This document shows positions 9,655 through 44,117 of a DNA stretch of 64,000 bases, piece after piece; positions within the stretch are counted from its first letter, which is position 1; each line of letters begins with the position of its first letter. Source of the DNA: Clostridium pasteurianum (GTDB lineage Bacteria > Bacillota > Clostridia > Clostridiales > Clostridiaceae); assembly GCF_001705235.1 (NCBI RefSeq), contig NZ_MCGV01000001.1:186001-250000 (forward strand), written 5' to 3'. The notes beneath the pieces are model-generated. The model worked only from the letters and a program-made list of their open reading frames with translations. It was not told where the DNA came from and did not search any database. Made by a program: the position numbers and the translations under genes.

Positions 9655-9862
9655 CAAAAAAGCTTTCATCCCCTATACACACATAAGGGACGAAAGCTGT
9701 AATTTCCGCGGTACCACCCTAATTACACTACAAAAGTGTCTCTCATCAAAAAGTTCAAAGATAGCTTCAAATCAATACATAAGAAGTTTTCACCAAACAC
9801 TTCTTCTCTAAATATGCAAATTAATTTTACTCATTCTTATCATCACTTTAATATAAACCAAT
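9655..9862 (-). promoter_or_regulatory. T-box leader of alaS with terminator/antiterminator
   Basis: The minus strand carries the T-box sequence GGGTGGTACCGCGG (9706-9719), which pairs with the NCCA end of uncharged tRNA. It is followed by a terminator at 9655-9697: AGCTTTCGTCCCT pairs with AGGGGATGAAAGCT, then a T-run. A likely specifier is GCT (Ala) in TTTGAAGCTATC, upstream in a Stem I-like region. The family model is that uncharged tRNA-Ala stabilises the antiterminator and switches on alaS. The specifier is inferred; the T-box and terminator are directly visible. Confidence 0.92.
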
Positions 9863-36727: not shown

Positions 36728-36811
36728 ATATAGTATGAAGAAACTATGATGGATTTTCTGAAATTGGGCACTTGGAAAATTCTGAGTTAATAGTGCAACC
36801 GACCAACTATT
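36728..36811 (+). promoter_or_regulatory. c-di-GMP-II riboswitch aptamer upstream of bcsA
   Basis: The stretch GAAGAAACTATGATGG...AAATTGGGCACTTGG...GAGTTAATAGTGCAACCGACC reproduces the conserved core of class II cyclic di-GMP riboswitches: (A)GAAAC-ATGATG, AAATTGGGCACTTG and TAGTGCAACCGACC. GGCACT and AGTGC can form the pseudoknot-region pairing known for the class. P1 is ATAGT (36730-36734) with ACTAT (36806-36810). It is directly followed by an intrinsic terminator and the bcsA gene, so its target is the cellulose operon. Confidence 0.93.
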
Positions 36812-36851
36812 GATATTTTTTAAAATATTTATCTATAGTTGGCCTTTTTTT
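36803..36851 (+). terminator. Riboswitch-controlled terminator before bcsA
   Basis: CCAACTATTGATA (36803-36815) pairs with TATCTATAGTTGG (36830-36842), followed by CCTTTTTTT. Its 5' half uses ACCAACTAT, which includes the 3' strand of aptamer P1. Aptamer and terminator should be mutually exclusive, predicting that c-di-GMP turns transcription ON. That direction is an inference. Confidence 0.85.
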
Positions 36852-36892: not shown

Positions 36893-39166
36893 ATGAAATT
36901 AAAGAAAATAAGAAATCATTTTTTAATAATTAGTAGTACACTGATGACTATTATTTATTTAATTTGGAGAATATTTTTTACTATTCCCATTGGAGATAAT
37001 ATAGTATCTATTTTTTCTGCGTTAGCATTATTAATTGTAGAAATTTTAGGAATGTTCGAAGCGGCAGTACACTATTACCAAATGTCAGAAATATCGTATC
37101 CATCAAAACCTAAAGTCAACGAAAATCTATTTCCTGATATAGACATTTTTATTGCTACATATAATGAGCCAAAAAAGTTACTTTATAAAACTATAAACGG
37201 CTGTATAAATATGGACTATCCCGATAAAACTAAAGTTCACATTTATTTATGTGACGATGGTAATCGACCCGAATTTAAGAATTTAGCACACTCTATGAAA
37301 ATAAATTACTTAACCCGTAGTGATAGAAAAGGTTCAAAAGCAGGAAATTTAAATAATGCTCTTGCACACTCAACTTCACCTTTAATTGTAACTTTTGATG
37401 CAGATATGATTCCAATGCATGATTTTTTAACTGCTTCTGTACCCTATTTTCTTACATCTGAAAAAGTTGGTTTTGTTCAAACTCCACAAAGCTTTTATAA
37501 TCCTGATTTATTTCAATATTATCTTTATTCAGAGGGAAGAATTCCAAATGAGCAGGATTATTTTTACAGAGACGTTCAAATTTCTAGAAACAAAAGCAAT
37601 TCAGTTATATATGGCGGCACAAATACTGTTATTTCACGTAAAGCTTTAGAGGACGCAGGCGGATTTTACACCAAAGCTATAACTGAAGATTTTGCAACTG
37701 GTTTAATAATACAAAGCAAGGGTTATAAGTGCTATGCCATTAACGAAATCCATGCTTCAGGTCTTGCCCCTGAGGACTTACCAAGTTTAATTAAGCAGCG
37801 TGAGAGATGGTCAAGAGGCTGCATTCAGACTGGTAGAAAATTAAATATATTATTTAGAAAAGGTCTAACTATAGGTCAAAAACTAAGCTATATTTCTGCA
37901 ATTTCTTACTGGTATTCAGGTATAAAAAGATTGATTTATATTATGTCCCCTATTCTTTTCTCAGTTTTTGGAGTAATTGTTGTAAAGTGTACTCTTACTC
38001 AAGTGCTTATTTTTTGGCTCCCAATGTATTTACTAAGCAACGCGGCATTAAAAAAATTATCCAACAATATAAGAACTACAAAATGGACGAATATATATGA
38101 AACTATTTTATTTCCATCACTTATTATTCCTGTTTTACTCGAAACCTTAGGTATATCACAGGTTAAATTTGCTGTAACACGAAAAGATGGAGTTCATGAT
38201 GATAAAAATTATCGATTAAAAAGATCAGTCCCTCATATATTTTTTGCCGTACTTTCCTTAATAGGCATAATAAACTGTACTAAAATGATTTTTGATTCAG
38301 GGTCACCTACATACATAGTTGTTTTATTTTGGCTTGTAGTTAATTTTTATAATTTATTAATGTCTATATTTTTTATGCTTGGAAGAAAATCCTTCCGTAC
38401 ATCCGAAAGATTTTTAGCAAAAGAGAAATGTATAATTTCTTATTATGAAAATCAAATTAGTTCTACAACTATAGATATATCTGAAGGAGGACTAGCTGTT
38501 ATTTTAAATTTTCCTGAATTTATACCTTATGATATTGATGTAAAACTCTCTATACATACTGAAATATACAATTGTGAATTTAAAGCTGTAGTTGTACATG
38601 TTCAAAATACAGGTAGGAGTTGGAAATATGCATTTAAAATAACAACTCTAGACGAAAGAAATCATAAAAAGCTGCTTCAAATTATTTATGATAGGGTACA
38701 CTCCCTACCTAAAAGTTTGGATAAAAGTAATAGCATATTTGATGATATTAGAGTTAATGTACTTGATAGGAATAAAAAGCCGTTTCAATTTAACAGGAAA
38801 CTTCCGCGCATTGAATTAAATACAGAATTATTATCAGATGAATCCGGAGAAGTAACCATGACGTCTTTTAATTATGAATATATTGTTTTAAAAGAAATTT
38901 GTTCCAAAAGGTTAAGTTCAAGATTAACGCTGCATATTAGCTACAATAAACGCATTAACTGTATTTTTGAAAAGAATATTAATTATAAACGAAAAGAAAA
39001 ATTCCATTCTTATCTTTACAGAATTGAAGATTATAAAGCTTTACAGAAAGATGAAGAATTCAGGCAAATATTAAATCAATGGATTATTAATAACAAAGAA
39101 GTTCAATATCAAGCACTTAATAAAAATAGAAATGACGACTATCTTAATGAAATGGATTATTTATGA
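36893..39166 (+). CDS. bcsA: Cellulose synthase catalytic subunit with C-terminal PilZ domain
   Basis: This 757-residue membrane GT2 polymerises UDP-glucose into beta-1,4-glucan and exports it. Membrane helices flank a GT domain with DDG (121-123), DAD (169-171), TED (264-266) and QRERW (302-306). The gating loop FAVTRKDG (426-433) matches the FxVTxK that c-di-GMP unlocks. The PilZ domain from about 498 has RTSERF and DISEGG (528-533), the binding arginines and D-x-S-xx-G. The C-terminal 120 residues are not recognised. The ATG follows TTAGGTGGCGATATTCA, a weaker ribosome site. Confidence 0.94.
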   Translation: MKLKKIRNHFLIISSTLMTIIYLIWRIFFTIPIGDNIVSIFSALALLIVEILGMFEAAVHYYQMSEISYPSKPKVNENLFPDIDIFIATYNEPKKLLYKTINGCINMDYPDKTKVHIYLCDDGNRPEFKNLAHSMKINYLTRSDRKGSKAGNLNNALAHSTSPLIVTFDADMIPMHDFLTASVPYFLTSEKVGFVQTPQSFYNPDLFQYYLYSEGRIPNEQDYFYRDVQISRNKSNSVIYGGTNTVISRKALEDAGGFYTKAITEDFATGLIIQSKGYKCYAINEIHASGLAPEDLPSLIKQRERWSRGCIQTGRKLNILFRKGLTIGQKLSYISAISYWYSGIKRLIYIMSPILFSVFGVIVVKCTLTQVLIFWLPMYLLSNAALKKLSNNIRTTKWTNIYETILFPSLIIPVLLETLGISQVKFAVTRKDGVHDDKNYRLKRSVPHIFFAVLSLIGIINCTKMIFDSGSPTYIVVLFWLVVNFYNLLMSIFFMLGRKSFRTSERFLAKEKCIISYYENQISSTTIDISEGGLAVILNFPEFIPYDIDVKLSIHTEIYNCEFKAVVVHVQNTGRSWKYAFKITTLDERNHKKLLQIIYDRVHSLPKSLDKSNSIFDDIRVNVLDRNKKPFQFNRKLPRIELNTELLSDESGEVTMTSFNYEYIVLKEICSKRLSSRLTLHISYNKRINCIFEKNINYKRKEKFHSYLYRIEDYKALQKDEEFRQILNQWIINNKEVQYQALNKNRNDDYLNEMDYL

Positions 39167-39181
39167 TTTAGGAGGATTAAC

Positions 39182-40363
39182 ATGACATTTATTAAAAAAA
39201 TACTACTGCTTTTTTTTATAATAATCTTAATTTTGCCTTATCATTTTATAGCTAAAGCAGATGCTACCTCAGGTATACTTATATCTGATAATATGCGTCA
39301 AATGTCAAACGGATCAACTGTCCAATATAATACAAATTCAATAAACGGAAATTATAATTTAACTGCTAAAATTACTTCTAAAGGATTAAAAAAAGGATAT
39401 TATTCAACTATCTTTTATAATGCTTTAAACAATAATATGTTTAATTATGGAATAGTCTCTTTTGACATACATAATAACTCTAATAGCCAATTAAATATCA
39501 ATTTTATGATCAATAAGCAAGATGGTACAAGTTTATCTATAGCAAATGACAGTTATGTACTTCTTAAAGAAAGTAGCAGTGCTTTAATAAAAAAATTATC
39601 TCCATCCAATGGAAGTATCGTAATTTCAAAAGGGTTTAATGGAACTGTTCTTATTCCACTAAACGCTTTAAAACAAAATCAAATTCAAAATACTAATCAG
39701 AATACTACATCTATGATTGCAAGCTTACCTTCTTGGTGGGGAATACTTATAACTTCAAAGGAGAATGAAAAAAAAGATTTTACTTTAAGCAATTTTAATC
39801 TAATAAACGCCGACAATAAAATACAGGAAATCGAAAATTTGAATGTAAACTTTAATGGTGACACAAGAGTTCAAATACCAGTTGTAGGTGAATCTATTGC
39901 TAAATATAGTGCCAATATTCATGATTCAAATGGAAATATAGTAAACCAAAAGATAACATATAAAATAGACACACCAAAGAAAGGAATTTCAATTGACAGC
40001 AATGGAATGCTTAAAATCAAACAAAATGTATCACCACAACCAATAAGAATAGATGCAGTGATAGACAATAATTTAGCATTTGAATCCAAAGAAATTCAAC
40101 TATATAAATCATGGACATTAGATGCAAAAGAATTGGACGGTACAAGCAAAAGTATCCCTCAAACCTACGAAGTAAAAAAAATATTAGGCAGTACATATAA
40201 ATTTTTGATGTCCGATTATGTAATGAATATTATAAGAATTTCTGCTGTTATATCATTACTGCTATTTATAAAATTATATTTATATTGGAAAAAAATTAAT
40301 TACAAAGAAAAAAAGTTTAATAGAAAAGAATATATTATTAGACGAAATAGAAAAAAATATTGA
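39182..40363 (+). CDS. Membrane-anchored secreted protein, candidate BcsB/CcsB-like partner
   Basis: This 393-residue protein has a signal peptide (hydrophobic residues about 5-25), a long extracytoplasmic Ser/Asn-rich beta-type region and one C-terminal membrane segment near residues 345-362. A very basic tail follows (KKINYKEKKFNRKEYIIRR). This topology matches what BcsB supplies to BcsA in Gram-negatives, but I see no BcsB sequence signature. Clostridial cellulose operons described in C. difficile (ccs genes) include a CcsB of this kind. It lies 15 bases after bcsA. The partner role is inferred. Confidence 0.65.
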   Translation: MTFIKKILLLFFIIILILPYHFIAKADATSGILISDNMRQMSNGSTVQYNTNSINGNYNLTAKITSKGLKKGYYSTIFYNALNNNMFNYGIVSFDIHNNSNSQLNINFMINKQDGTSLSIANDSYVLLKESSSALIKKLSPSNGSIVISKGFNGTVLIPLNALKQNQIQNTNQNTTSMIASLPSWWGILITSKENEKKDFTLSNFNLINADNKIQEIENLNVNFNGDTRVQIPVVGESIAKYSANIHDSNGNIVNQKITYKIDTPKKGISIDSNGMLKIKQNVSPQPIRIDAVIDNNLAFESKEIQLYKSWTLDAKELDGTSKSIPQTYEVKKILGSTYKFLMSDYVMNIIRISAVISLLLFIKLYLYWKKINYKEKKFNRKEYIIRRNRKKY

Positions 40364-40396
40364 TAAATTATTTAATATATAAAGGGTGAATTAATA

Positions 40397-41803
40397 ATGC
40401 TATTTTCAAGTATAGTTTTCATACTGTATTTCTTGCCAATAACCTTGGTATTATACTATTTAACATCATTTTCTAAAAAGCTTCAAAATATTATACTTTT
40501 AGTACTCAGTTTAATTTTTTATGCCTGGGGACAATCTTCATATGTACTAATTATGGTATTTTCTATTTTATTTAATTACATATTAGGCTTATTAATTGAA
40601 AAATACAAAGCAAAATTCTTTTTAATATTTGGATGCTTGTGTAACCTTGGAATACTCTTTGTATTTAAATATTTAGGATTTTTCATAAGAAATATAAACA
40701 GTTTACAATCCTTTAAAATACCAGTCCCTACCCTATCTCTGCCTGTTGGTATTTCTTTTTTTACATTTAAAGCTGTATCGTACCTTGTAGATGTTTATAA
40801 AGAAAAATCAAAAGCAGCTAAGAATCCTATTTATGTTGGGCTCTACATATCATTTTTCCCTGAGCTCTTAGCTGGACCTATTTCTAAATACAACAATATA
40901 GTAGATCAAATAAAAAGTAGAAAAATCACATGGCAAAAATTTTCCGTAGGTTCATGTAGATTTATTACAGGTCTTAGTAAAAAAGTTCTTATATCAAATA
41001 GTATGGCTGTTATAGTCGATAGAATTATTTCTCTCAATGGTAATTTAAACATACCGGCAACACTTGCATGGCTTGGATCCATTGCGTATACTCTTCAAAT
41101 ATATTTTGATTTTTCTGGATACTCTGATATGGCAATAGGACTAGGATTAATGCTAGGATTCAAATTTGAGGAAAACTTTAATTATCCATATATATCAAAA
41201 TCCATATCAGAATTCTGGCGCAGATGGCACATTACTTTAAGTACATGGTTTAAAGACTATGTTTATTTCCCCCTTGGAGGTTCTAGAGTTAAAAATAAAG
41301 ATAAATTAATACGTAACCTGCTTATTGTATGGGTACTCACTGGAGTGTGGCACGGTGCAGAATGGACATTTGTAATCTGGGGATTTTTGAATTTTGTCTT
41401 CATTGCTTTAGAAAAGTTATTATCTTTTGACAAATTGGATATAAAACCTATATATAAACATCTTTATGCACTTTTCATTATAAATTTAGGTTGGGTTATT
41501 TTTAGAGCAAAGGATTTAGAAGCAGCTGGTAAATATATTGCATGCATGTTTGGCCTTAAAAACAATGGTTTCTGGAGCCCATACACATTTATGTTTATAA
41601 AAGAAAATATTGTTTTCTTTATAGCTGGAATCATATTATCAACTCCAATAGCAAGAAAAACTAACACATATATAGTATATAAAGCAAAGCATGCTGCTCT
41701 TTTAGAAGTTTTGTATCCAATTTCTATATTAGGACTTTTTTTAATATCCTTATCCTATATAGTAAAAGGTTCTTATAATCCATTTATTTATTTTAAATTT
41801 TAA
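40397..41803 (+). CDS. MBOAT O-acyltransferase, AlgI-like
   Basis: This 468-residue polytopic membrane protein is of the MBOAT family, which moves acyl groups across the membrane to extracellular polysaccharides (AlgI on alginate, WssH on cellulose, DltB on teichoic acid). It has SISEFWRRWHITLSTWFKDY (His278), FPLGGSRV and the catalytic VLTGVWHGAEW (His319). The ribosome site AAAGGGTG precedes the ATG. It is followed 18 bases later by a DHHW protein, the usual transfer partner. Acetylation of the product is inferred. Confidence 0.9.
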   Translation: MLFSSIVFILYFLPITLVLYYLTSFSKKLQNIILLVLSLIFYAWGQSSYVLIMVFSILFNYILGLLIEKYKAKFFLIFGCLCNLGILFVFKYLGFFIRNINSLQSFKIPVPTLSLPVGISFFTFKAVSYLVDVYKEKSKAAKNPIYVGLYISFFPELLAGPISKYNNIVDQIKSRKITWQKFSVGSCRFITGLSKKVLISNSMAVIVDRIISLNGNLNIPATLAWLGSIAYTLQIYFDFSGYSDMAIGLGLMLGFKFEENFNYPYISKSISEFWRRWHITLSTWFKDYVYFPLGGSRVKNKDKLIRNLLIVWVLTGVWHGAEWTFVIWGFLNFVFIALEKLLSFDKLDIKPIYKHLYALFIINLGWVIFRAKDLEAAGKYIACMFGLKNNGFWSPYTFMFIKENIVFFIAGIILSTPIARKTNTYIVYKAKHAALLEVLYPISILGLFLISLSYIVKGSYNPFIYFKF

Positions 41804-41821
41804 GGAAAAGAGGAAATATGA

Positions 41822-43024
41822 ATGGACAGACTATTTTTCAAAAAATTTATAACATCCATACTATTTGTCATTTTACTTTTTGTACTTTCCTTTAATAATT
41901 TTGCGAAAAATTATACATCTTTATTAAATGCATTTAAAAATACAAAATTTAACAGTATATCTATAAATAGCGCTACAAGCTCCTTAGAAAATACATTAAA
42001 TGATAGCACCTATGGTAAATATACCTTTATAGAATTATATGGATATATTCAAAAATTAATGTGCAAAAATGAAGAATCAAATTTCGAAGTTGTAAAGGAT
42101 GAAAACGGATTTTTGCATTACACCTATTTTGCAAGTCAGCCTAATGCTGTTTATCCACTTGTAAAAAGAATGCAAGCTTTGAAAAGCAACCTAAAAGACA
42201 AAAACACTAAACTAATTTACATGATGCCGCCAGATAAATACATAAGAGGTTATTCAAAATTCCCATATGGAATTCCATACAGTTATTCAAATGAAACGGC
42301 AGATGCATTTCTAAATTTACTGAAAAAGAATAATATTAATACAATAGATCTGCGTAAAAATTTGAGCAAAAGCGATATTCCAAACGATCAGCTATTTTTT
42401 AAGACCGATCATCACTGGACAATTCAAACAGCTTTTTATGAATTTGGAGAGCTTGTGAAAACTTTAAATGAAAGATACGATTTGAATATCGATAAAGATG
42501 GCTTTTATACGAATAAAAATAATTATAATTTTATAACTTACAAAAATTCCTATGTTGGATCAATGGGACGAAAAACTGGAATTACATATTCTGGGGTAGA
42601 TGATTTTACTTTAATTTACCCTAAGTTTGATACAAATTATAACTTCTACTGTAAAACAGGAAGTCAGATATTTAATTTTAATGGTAGATTTGAAGATACT
42701 CTACTTACAATATCACCTTTTAGAACTAACAAAGGTACTTATGATTTAGAAGCTGATAAATATTCTTCATACCTTTTTGGCAATAGAGGAATTGTCCATG
42801 TGACAAACAAAAATAATCCCAATGGTCCAAAGGTTTTATTTGTAAAAGACTCAGTTACTGTACCACTTGCAGCATTTTTATCTACTGTTTGCTCTGATGT
42901 TTACCTTGTTGATCCTAGATATTATACTGGCAGCATTCCAGCTTATATAAATAGTGTAAAGACTGACTTTGTGTTTGTATCATTTTACCCTCAAGATTTA
43001 ACAATGGATTTCTTTAAATTTTAA
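41822..43024 (+). CDS. DHHW family protein (AlgJ/AlgX-like SGNH acetyltransferase candidate)
   Basis: This 400-residue protein has a single N-terminal membrane anchor (about 8-27) and an extracytoplasmic SGNH-like domain. The name motif is exact: KTDHHWT (194-200), and a nucleophile candidate is S344 in VKDSVTVP, with YPKFD and PDKY supporting the fold. In alginate and cellulose acetylation the DHHW/SGNH protein receives the acetyl group from the MBOAT protein. Its pairing with the preceding gene supports this; the substrate is inferred as cellulose. Confidence 0.82.
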   Translation: MDRLFFKKFITSILFVILLFVLSFNNFAKNYTSLLNAFKNTKFNSISINSATSSLENTLNDSTYGKYTFIELYGYIQKLMCKNEESNFEVVKDENGFLHYTYFASQPNAVYPLVKRMQALKSNLKDKNTKLIYMMPPDKYIRGYSKFPYGIPYSYSNETADAFLNLLKKNNINTIDLRKNLSKSDIPNDQLFFKTDHHWTIQTAFYEFGELVKTLNERYDLNIDKDGFYTNKNNYNFITYKNSYVGSMGRKTGITYSGVDDFTLIYPKFDTNYNFYCKTGSQIFNFNGRFEDTLLTISPFRTNKGTYDLEADKYSSYLFGNRGIVHVTNKNNPNGPKVLFVKDSVTVPLAAFLSTVCSDVYLVDPRYYTGSIPAYINSVKTDFVFVSFYPQDLTMDFFKF

Positions 43025-43058
43025 GAAATAATGAATTACATTTATGGAGGTTTTAATA

Positions 43059-44117
43059 ATGAAACTTGGTAGGTTCAAAATTTTCCCTTTAGTTATATTA
43101 ACTATTATTTCTCTAACGAGCTGCGTGAATACACATAAAAAAATCCAGAACAAAAGAACCTACGGAAGTGATTATTATAATTACTGGAAAAAGAAATATG
43201 TTGTAAGCGTAAATTCCAGCATGAGTAAAGTAGTTAATCCTGAAAATAATAAAATTACTGTCAGTGAAGGAATGGGCTATGGTCTCCTATTTAGTGCTGC
43301 TTATGATGATAAAAACCAATTTGATAAGCTTTGGAATTATACTAAGCACTACCTCGATAATAATGGTTTAATGAACTGGAAAATAAACTCTAATGGAAAT
43401 ATTTCAGGTTATGGATCAGCTTCAGATGCAGATGAAGATATAGCATATGCTCTTTTACTTGCAGCAGAAAAATGGCCTAATGCTAGCTACAATAAGGAAG
43501 CGGTAAAAATGATTAACGCAATAAAAAGCACAGAAATTTCAAAAGATTATATACTTTTACCTGGTGACAGTTGGGGAAACAATCCCCCTTTTAATCCCTC
43601 CTACGTTTCTCCATACTACTATTATAAATTTGCCGCACTTTCAAGCTCTGAAAAAAATTATTGGGAAAAAGTGCTGAATGTAAATGTTAACCTTCTAAAT
43701 CAAAATATAGACAAAGAAACAGGACTTTTACCTGATTGGATTAATAAAGATGGCACTATAAAAGCTGAAAATAATAAATTTGGATATGATGCAGTAAGAG
43801 TTCCTTTAAGGCTTATTGAATTTTATAATGAAACGCATAATTCTACAGCAAAGGATATATTAGAGAGAGAAAATGACTTTCTTTCAAAAATTGGTTCTAA
43901 TAAGCTAGTCTCCGGATACAGCACAGATGGTAAACCATTAGCAAACTACATAAACTCCGTATATTTATCTTCTTTTTCAGCAGCAAGCCTTATTAATAAA
44001 GATTCTAACTTCAGCAAAGAAATGATAACTAAACTCAAGAATTCTAAAGATGAAAGCTATTACGGATGCTCTTTAAAGATGTGGGTGTTTCTTATTTTAG
44101 ATAATAAACTAAATTAA
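43059..44117 (+). CDS. Glycoside hydrolase family 8 lipoprotein (BcsZ-like endoglucanase)
   Basis: This 352-residue GH8 enzyme cleaves beta-1,4-glucan. From the ATG at 43059 (behind GGAGG, 8 bases) it has a lipoprotein signal with LTSC (Cys22). The GH8 core has the catalytic acid E70 in TVSEGMGYGLLF and aspartates in YGSASDADEDIAYAL (D123, D125), then PGDSWG. In Gram-negative operons BcsZ trims nascent cellulose and helps export; here it would sit on the outer face of the membrane. It is the last gene of the operon, followed by repeat D. Confidence 0.9.
   Translation: MKLGRFKIFPLVILTIISLTSCVNTHKKIQNKRTYGSDYYNYWKKKYVVSVNSSMSKVVNPENNKITVSEGMGYGLLFSAAYDDKNQFDKLWNYTKHYLDNNGLMNWKINSNGNISGYGSASDADEDIAYALLLAAEKWPNASYNKEAVKMINAIKSTEISKDYILLPGDSWGNNPPFNPSYVSPYYYYKFAALSSSEKNYWEKVLNVNVNLLNQNIDKETGLLPDWINKDGTIKAENNKFGYDAVRVPLRLIEFYNETHNSTAKDILERENDFLSKIGSNKLVSGYSTDGKPLANYINSVYLSSFSAASLINKDSNFSKEMITKLKNSKDESYYGCSLKMWVFLILDNKLN

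Follow-up and report, generated by a model that had tools for sequence, protein, structure and literature searches.

Gene content of the ccs locus

Five co-directional open reading frames occupy positions 36893-44117 on the + strand of the window, the 64,000-nucleotide stretch analyzed here (positions 186001-250000 of a 4.49 Mb contig), with intergenic gaps of 15, 33, 18 and 19 nt in gene order. Sequence and structure comparisons, combined with searches of the whole 4.68 Mb Clostridium-group genome, identified the following genes and upstream elements:

36730..36810, + strand: c-di-GMP-II riboswitch aptamer (RF01786; Rfam)
36803..36849, + strand: intrinsic terminator (fold and alignment)
36893..39166, + strand: ccsA, BcsA-type GT2 synthase with PilZ domain, 757 aa (Pfam, motifs, AlphaFold model, tree)
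39182..40363, + strand: ccsB, anchored protein, 393 aa (AlphaFold model, profile match to 8smq)
40397..41803, + strand: ccsH, MBOAT acyltransferase, 468 aa (Pfam, motif)
41822..43024, + strand: ccsI, SGNH O-acetyltransferase (PatB1/AlgX-like), 400 aa (Pfam, PatB1 match)
43044..44117, + strand: GH8 endoglucanase lipoprotein, putatively in the hydrolase role of CcsZ, 357 aa (Pfam, CelA match, lipobox)

The order BcsA-PilZ protein, anchored protein, MBOAT protein, DHHW protein and GH8 lipoprotein had been proposed in a sequence-only reading of the window, and Pfam agrees with it. The ccsA product matches GT2 (1.1e-23) and PilZ (5e-13), CcsH matches MBOAT (2.7e-33), CcsI matches ALGX (1.1e-12) and DHHW (3.5e-6), and the last protein matches GH8 (1.6e-48), while the 393-aa protein has no Pfam match. 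NCBIfam hits, all below their cut-offs, relate CcsA to cellulose synthase CelA, the MBOAT protein to DltB and the GH8 protein to BcsZ. The genome encodes one MBOAT and one GH8 protein, both within this operon, and at least seven strong GH5 matches lie elsewhere. BcsB (PF03170) and BcsC (PF05420) had been predicted to be absent and indeed gave zero matches across the genome, with an E. coli positive control detected.

The suspected kinship with the C. difficile ccs operon extends to all four core genes. Each of A, B, H and I has a homologue in C. difficile ccsZABHI (Scott et al. 2020, PMC7710045), and the gene order is shared; identities are about 51, 24, 59 and 52%, respectively. In both species CcsA carries a PilZ domain, CcsB is CBM11-like and has a single membrane helix at either terminus, and the endoglucanase is membrane-anchored. 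The two operons differ in that the hydrolase is a GH8 protein encoded at the 3′ end here and a GH5 protein encoded at the 5′ end in C. difficile. A CcsA orthologue, a CcsB gene next to ccsA, and adjacent ccsH and ccsI genes are all present, whereas a GH5 CcsZ is not; the locus is therefore filed as a ccsABHI variant and not as a canonical ccsZABHI operon. The same operon type is listed for C. acetobutylicum CA_C1561-CA_C1565 (Dannheim et al. 2017, PMC5377389), which, compared by published description, differs in having its hydrolase (CA_C1563) between B and H by locus number.

The protein in the BcsB position

The 393-aa protein had initially been described as unrecognised. A profile of its family, compared with PDB sequences, gave a single strong match, 8smq (1.9e-41), followed by CBM11 (1.6e-4). 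8smq is the solved N-domain of "hypothetical protein CD630_25440" of C. difficile, and the protein that adjoins CcsA in C. difficile matches it at 5.5e-90. That locus was assigned to C. difficile from its neighbouring CcsZ, which matches 6uje at 3.3e-183, and named C. difficile records have the same gene order. Relatives of the 393-aa protein likewise adjoin CcsA relatives in other genomes. The protein is therefore CcsB, which was named in 2020, when a CBM11-like fold and a membrane helix at either terminus were predicted for it (PMC7710045), and the idea that it is new was rejected. A search of the literature for the C. difficile ccs locus tags found nothing beyond that 2020 paper.

Structure prediction of the protein alone, suggested as a check on the original reading, gave a confident CBM11-like model (mean pLDDT 87.5; alignment of 51 relatives). 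A signal peptide (2-20) is followed by a CBM11-like jelly roll (39-209), an Ig/Rib-like beta-sandwich (220-310), amphipathic short helices (328-342) and a transmembrane helix within 345-392, where the first half of a long helix forms the membrane anchor. In VIA-align comparisons 8smq ranked first (Z 14.6, rmsd 2.4, 139 residues) and CBM11 6r31 second (Z 12.6, 149 residues), and the second domain resembled Rib/Ig-like folds. BcsB is absent among the structural matches listed, a result that speaks for the jelly-roll domain alone, since that domain fills the list. We infer that CcsB is the counterpart of BcsB in role, a non-homologous stand-in.

The synthase and its C-terminal domain

CcsA contains the motifs DAD (169-171), TED (264-266), QRERW (302-306) and FAVTRK (426-431), with RTSER (502-506) and DISEGG (528-533) in the PilZ domain. 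VIA alignment of its AlphaFold model (pLDDT 85.8) with BcsA structures covered residues 1 to about 625 and gave Z values of 31.8 to 35.6. The locus shares with Gram-negative Bcs systems the BcsA fold (E. coli BcsA, Z 35.6 over residues 1-623), the PilZ domain and a hydrolase of the GH8 family to which BcsZ belongs; it differs from them in lacking BcsB and BcsC and in having a GH8 protein closer to CelA than to BcsZ.

A second comparison was with RiGT2 of Romboutsia ilealis, a homologous GT2 and PilZ synthase that also comes from a Gram-positive anaerobe (PMC10374906). It was taken as a 637-aa sequence (L134) whose length and six motif positions (DAD 186, TED 278, QRDRW 316, FNVTLK 439, RTSER 517 and NLSEKG 545) agree with the published description. 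In a tree of 89 sequences, the window protein lies beside those of C. hydrogenum and C. acidisoli, inside a large group that includes C. difficile CcsA, and outside the clade of RiGT2 and its kin, from which it is separated by a branch with an SH-aLRT value of 100. The identity of window CcsA to RiGT2 is about 35%, and that to C. difficile CcsA about 51-52%. The tree rules out assignment of CcsA to the RiGT2 clade of mixed-linkage glucan synthases, a result that concerns clade membership and leaves linkage itself aside. The placement of window CcsA with the C. difficile protein and away from RiGT2 favors a Ccs-type product.

CcsA extends about 135 residues past PilZ. This C-terminal domain (residues about 625-757), a new feature of the system, is common to CcsA proteins and missing from RiGT2. 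Its predicted fold combines a small beta-barrel with a long helix, and the arginines R635 and R639, in an RxxxR arrangement, are near-invariant. The best Pfam match was DUF7944 (E=0.01, in one member only), and PDB sequences gave no match. A second PilZ domain was considered, since the predicted strand order and the RxxxR motif are similar to those of PilZ, but profile comparison with the PilZ domains of the same proteins returned only the overlapping linker, or nothing above shuffled controls.

A c-di-GMP-II riboswitch precedes ccsA

The aptamer upstream of the operon, which the original reading did not include, scored 66.5 bits against a gathering score of 53.5 and aligned to the full model (1-84), with its 3′ end 82 nt ahead of the ccsA start. 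A terminator stem (CCAACTAT/ATAGTTGG) is followed by the T run CCTTTTTTT; ACTAT (36806-36810), the 3′ strand of aptamer P1, overlaps with the 5′ arm of this stem. P1 and the terminator would be mutually exclusive, so that ligand should favor transcription, and the riboswitch is predicted to be an ON switch. In C. hydrogenum, C. puniceum and Tepidibacter mesophilus, ccsA is preceded by the same layout of aptamer and terminator. Judged by eye on these and the window sequence, four in all, C. puniceum and Tepidibacter keep the stem through compensating paired changes, and a T run follows each. Lachnotalea glycerini has a c-di-GMP-I aptamer at the equivalent place, whereas Rfam detects no riboswitch at the C. 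difficile ccs locus examined (L072). A c-di-GMP-II riboswitch and terminator at the head of a ccs operon is a second new feature. The presence of both a riboswitch and a PilZ domain suggests that c-di-GMP probably controls operon transcription as well as synthase activity, so that in some species the ccs system would be tied to this messenger at two levels.

In this region, matches to promoter consensus sequences were no more frequent than in shuffled sequences. Two further c-di-GMP-II riboswitches lie in the same genome outside the window (C1:1592830-1592912 and C1:2474984-2475067), and a T-box leader (RF00230, 108.9 bits) is present in the window at 9683-9852 on the - strand.

A GH8 hydrolase in place of GH5

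The last gene encodes, as had been claimed, a GH8 lipoprotein of a kind not found in described ccs operons. Its lipobox is LTSC (residues 24-27), and the GH8 motifs are SEG (74-76, with Glu75), DADED (128-132) and YDAVR (248-252, with Asp249). It matches C. thermocellum CelA (1cem) at 1.1e-47, with the acid Glu and the YDAxR Asp aligned, and BcsZ (3qxf) at just 1.4e-12. The E-to-Q mutant structure 1kwf pins the catalytic Glu, and the protein retains the catalytic Glu/Asp of CelA-type GH8 enzymes. These features suggest that the BcsZ-like arrangement arose by parallel recruitment and not by descent from a Bcs operon.

Operon order was compared across 80 named loci or genomes with close CcsA relatives. 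B adjoins A in 51 of the 80, the order A-B-H-I being kept in nearly all of these, while 26 of the 80 are of a CotH type. At B-type loci, a GH5 gene may precede A, separate B from H or lie downstream, and none was detected in 22 of the 51. Among 28 CcsA-bearing Clostridiaceae genomes searched, GH8 was found at the ccs operon in three alone, namely the present genome, C. hydrogenum and C. intestinale, always after ccsI. Replacement of the GH5 of described ccs operons by a CelA-like GH8 in these three genomes is the third new feature. The C. hydrogenum and C. intestinale proteins are 66% and 52% identical to the copy described here, respectively.

The three GH8 hosts form a supported CcsA group with C. 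acidisoli (99), which has no adjacent GH8 gene, making one gain and one loss the simplest history. In a genome of the same genus (G003), a GH5 remnant with stops lies between ccsB and ccsH (L016 10607-11194; E 4.4e-49 to a C. akagii GH5), and this lineage has probably lost the GH5 gene there.

The putative acetylation gene pair

An acetylation-type MBOAT/DHHW pair had been noted in the operon, and motif comparisons fit this assignment. CcsH carries WHG at 318-320 (His319), and its nearest solved structure by sequence is DltB (4.6e-20). CcsI carries DHH (196-198) and KDS (342-344) and its alignment with B. cereus PatB1 (5v8d, 3.3e-9) spans most of the protein and takes in both FKTDHHW and KDS. 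The arrangement resembles Pseudomonas fluorescens Wss, in which an MBOAT protein and an SGNH acetyltransferase are linked with a cellulose synthase and a hydrolase; there the comparable SGNH protein WssI has in vitro acetylation activity on cello-oligomers (PMC10302187). It differs in having H and I only, with no further acetylation genes, and an SGNH protein nearer to Gram-positive PatB1.

H and I accompany CcsA in Clostridium, Paenibacillus, Clostridioides, Roseburia and others, in two architectures, and this constant company makes the glucan the likely acceptor. The secreted glucose polymer of C. difficile has been measured to be acetylated, and an acetylated polysaccharide has been reported in C. 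acetobutylicum (PMC5377389). Judged from gene sequences and context, the pair most likely O-acetylates the polymer made by the operon.

Alternative explanations

Two alternatives would detach individual genes from the system. The MBOAT/SGNH pair might acylate another envelope polymer, a secondary cell wall polysaccharide or teichoic acid, with its place in the operon reflecting co-regulation only. The nearest solved relatives, PatB1 (of PatA1/PatB1, acting on secondary cell wall polysaccharide) and DltB (teichoic acid), would fit this, as would the fact that no other MBOAT protein is encoded in the genome. The association of H and I with CcsA across the genera listed above and others, and in two architectures, together with the acetyl groups on the C. 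difficile polymer, makes this explanation very improbable. The GH8 protein might similarly be a digestive cellulase that lies downstream by chance, as its closeness to cellulosomal CelA rather than BcsZ and the missing neighbour in C. acidisoli could suggest. Its gene, however, begins 19 nt 3′ of ccsI on the same strand and occupies the identical position in C. hydrogenum and C. intestinale, and no other GH8 of similar score was found in the 28 CcsA-bearing genomes. All three copies are predicted to be membrane-anchored, and the operon is without its usual GH5. A chance neighbour is thus improbable, and we treat the hydrolase as part of the system.

A third alternative concerns the polymer. 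CBM11, which is known for mixed-linkage glucan, is the nearest binding-module match of CcsB in both fold and sequence, and the product might be an O-acetylated mixed-linkage (1,3;1,4)-beta-glucan, not cellulose, bound by this CBM11-like domain. RiGT2, a Gram-positive PilZ synthase related to CcsA, produces mixed-linkage glucan (PMC10374906). C. difficile CcsZ shows five-fold higher activity on mixed-linkage beta-glucan than on CMC, and one relative has a beta-1,3-glucanase-type GH16 in its operon. On the other hand, RiGT2 belongs to a separate clade, lacks the C-terminal domain and, according to its authors, is not accompanied in an operon by a BcsB-like partner (PMC10374906). CcsZ has no significant activity on lichenin, a CBM fold does not fix specificity, and the GH8 protein here is nearest to an endo-1,4-glucanase. 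On balance we regard a mixed-linkage product as unlikely. An extended version, in which CcsB took over from BcsB by convergence as a CBM11-like chain receiver and each lineage matches its hydrolase (GH5, GH8 or GH16) to the linkage pattern of such a glucan, is more doubtful still.

Proposed mechanism

Taken together, the comparisons describe a real, functional-looking variant of a described system, with modest novelty. We consider it fairly likely that ccsABHI with GH8 is a variant clostridial cellulose synthase operon that works as follows. At high c-di-GMP the aptamer would close, the terminator would be blocked and the operon would be transcribed. Judging from its motifs, the PilZ domain of CcsA would bind c-di-GMP and open the gate as in BcsA, and CcsA would convert UDP-glucose to beta-glucan threaded through its own channel. 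CcsB, held by its single C-terminal membrane helix with the CBM11-like domain outside, would receive the emerging chain; CcsH would move acetyl groups across the membrane and CcsI would set them on the chain. The membrane-anchored GH8 protein would trim or release chains, the role that GH5 CcsZ has in C. difficile and BcsZ has in Gram-negative bacteria. BcsC would be unneeded because there is no outer membrane.

By inference, an acetylated glucan is a well-supported product, helped by the acetylated glucose polymer measured in C. difficile (PMC5377389), and the polymer is probably destined for the biofilm matrix. We found no published linkage analysis tied to ccs genes for any ccs product; a beta-1,4-linked backbone is likely, and the original interpretation of the operon as making acetylated cellulose is plausible.

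These findings widen the described ccs system from a GH5-bearing operon to a four-gene core, ABHI, that tolerates unrelated hydrolase families or none. CcsB emerges as a testable stand-in for BcsB, and a harmless Clostridium carrying a GH8-type ccs operon would offer a convenient host for settling which polymer ccs operons make.

Related loci

Other arrangements were seen in the survey. In C. hydrogenum (L043 10289-17995), B-H-I is tandemly duplicated to give A-B-H-I-B-H-I-GH8. At L020 (2376-9966), the hydrolase position of a ccsABHI operon is taken by a laminarinase-like protein with GH16 and CBM4_9. The order CotH-H-I-A-GH5, without CcsB, occurs at L034, L035, L074, L078 and about 20 further loci in Lachnospiraceae and some other Bacillota, where the CotH kinase-like protein may replace CcsB or may modify something.
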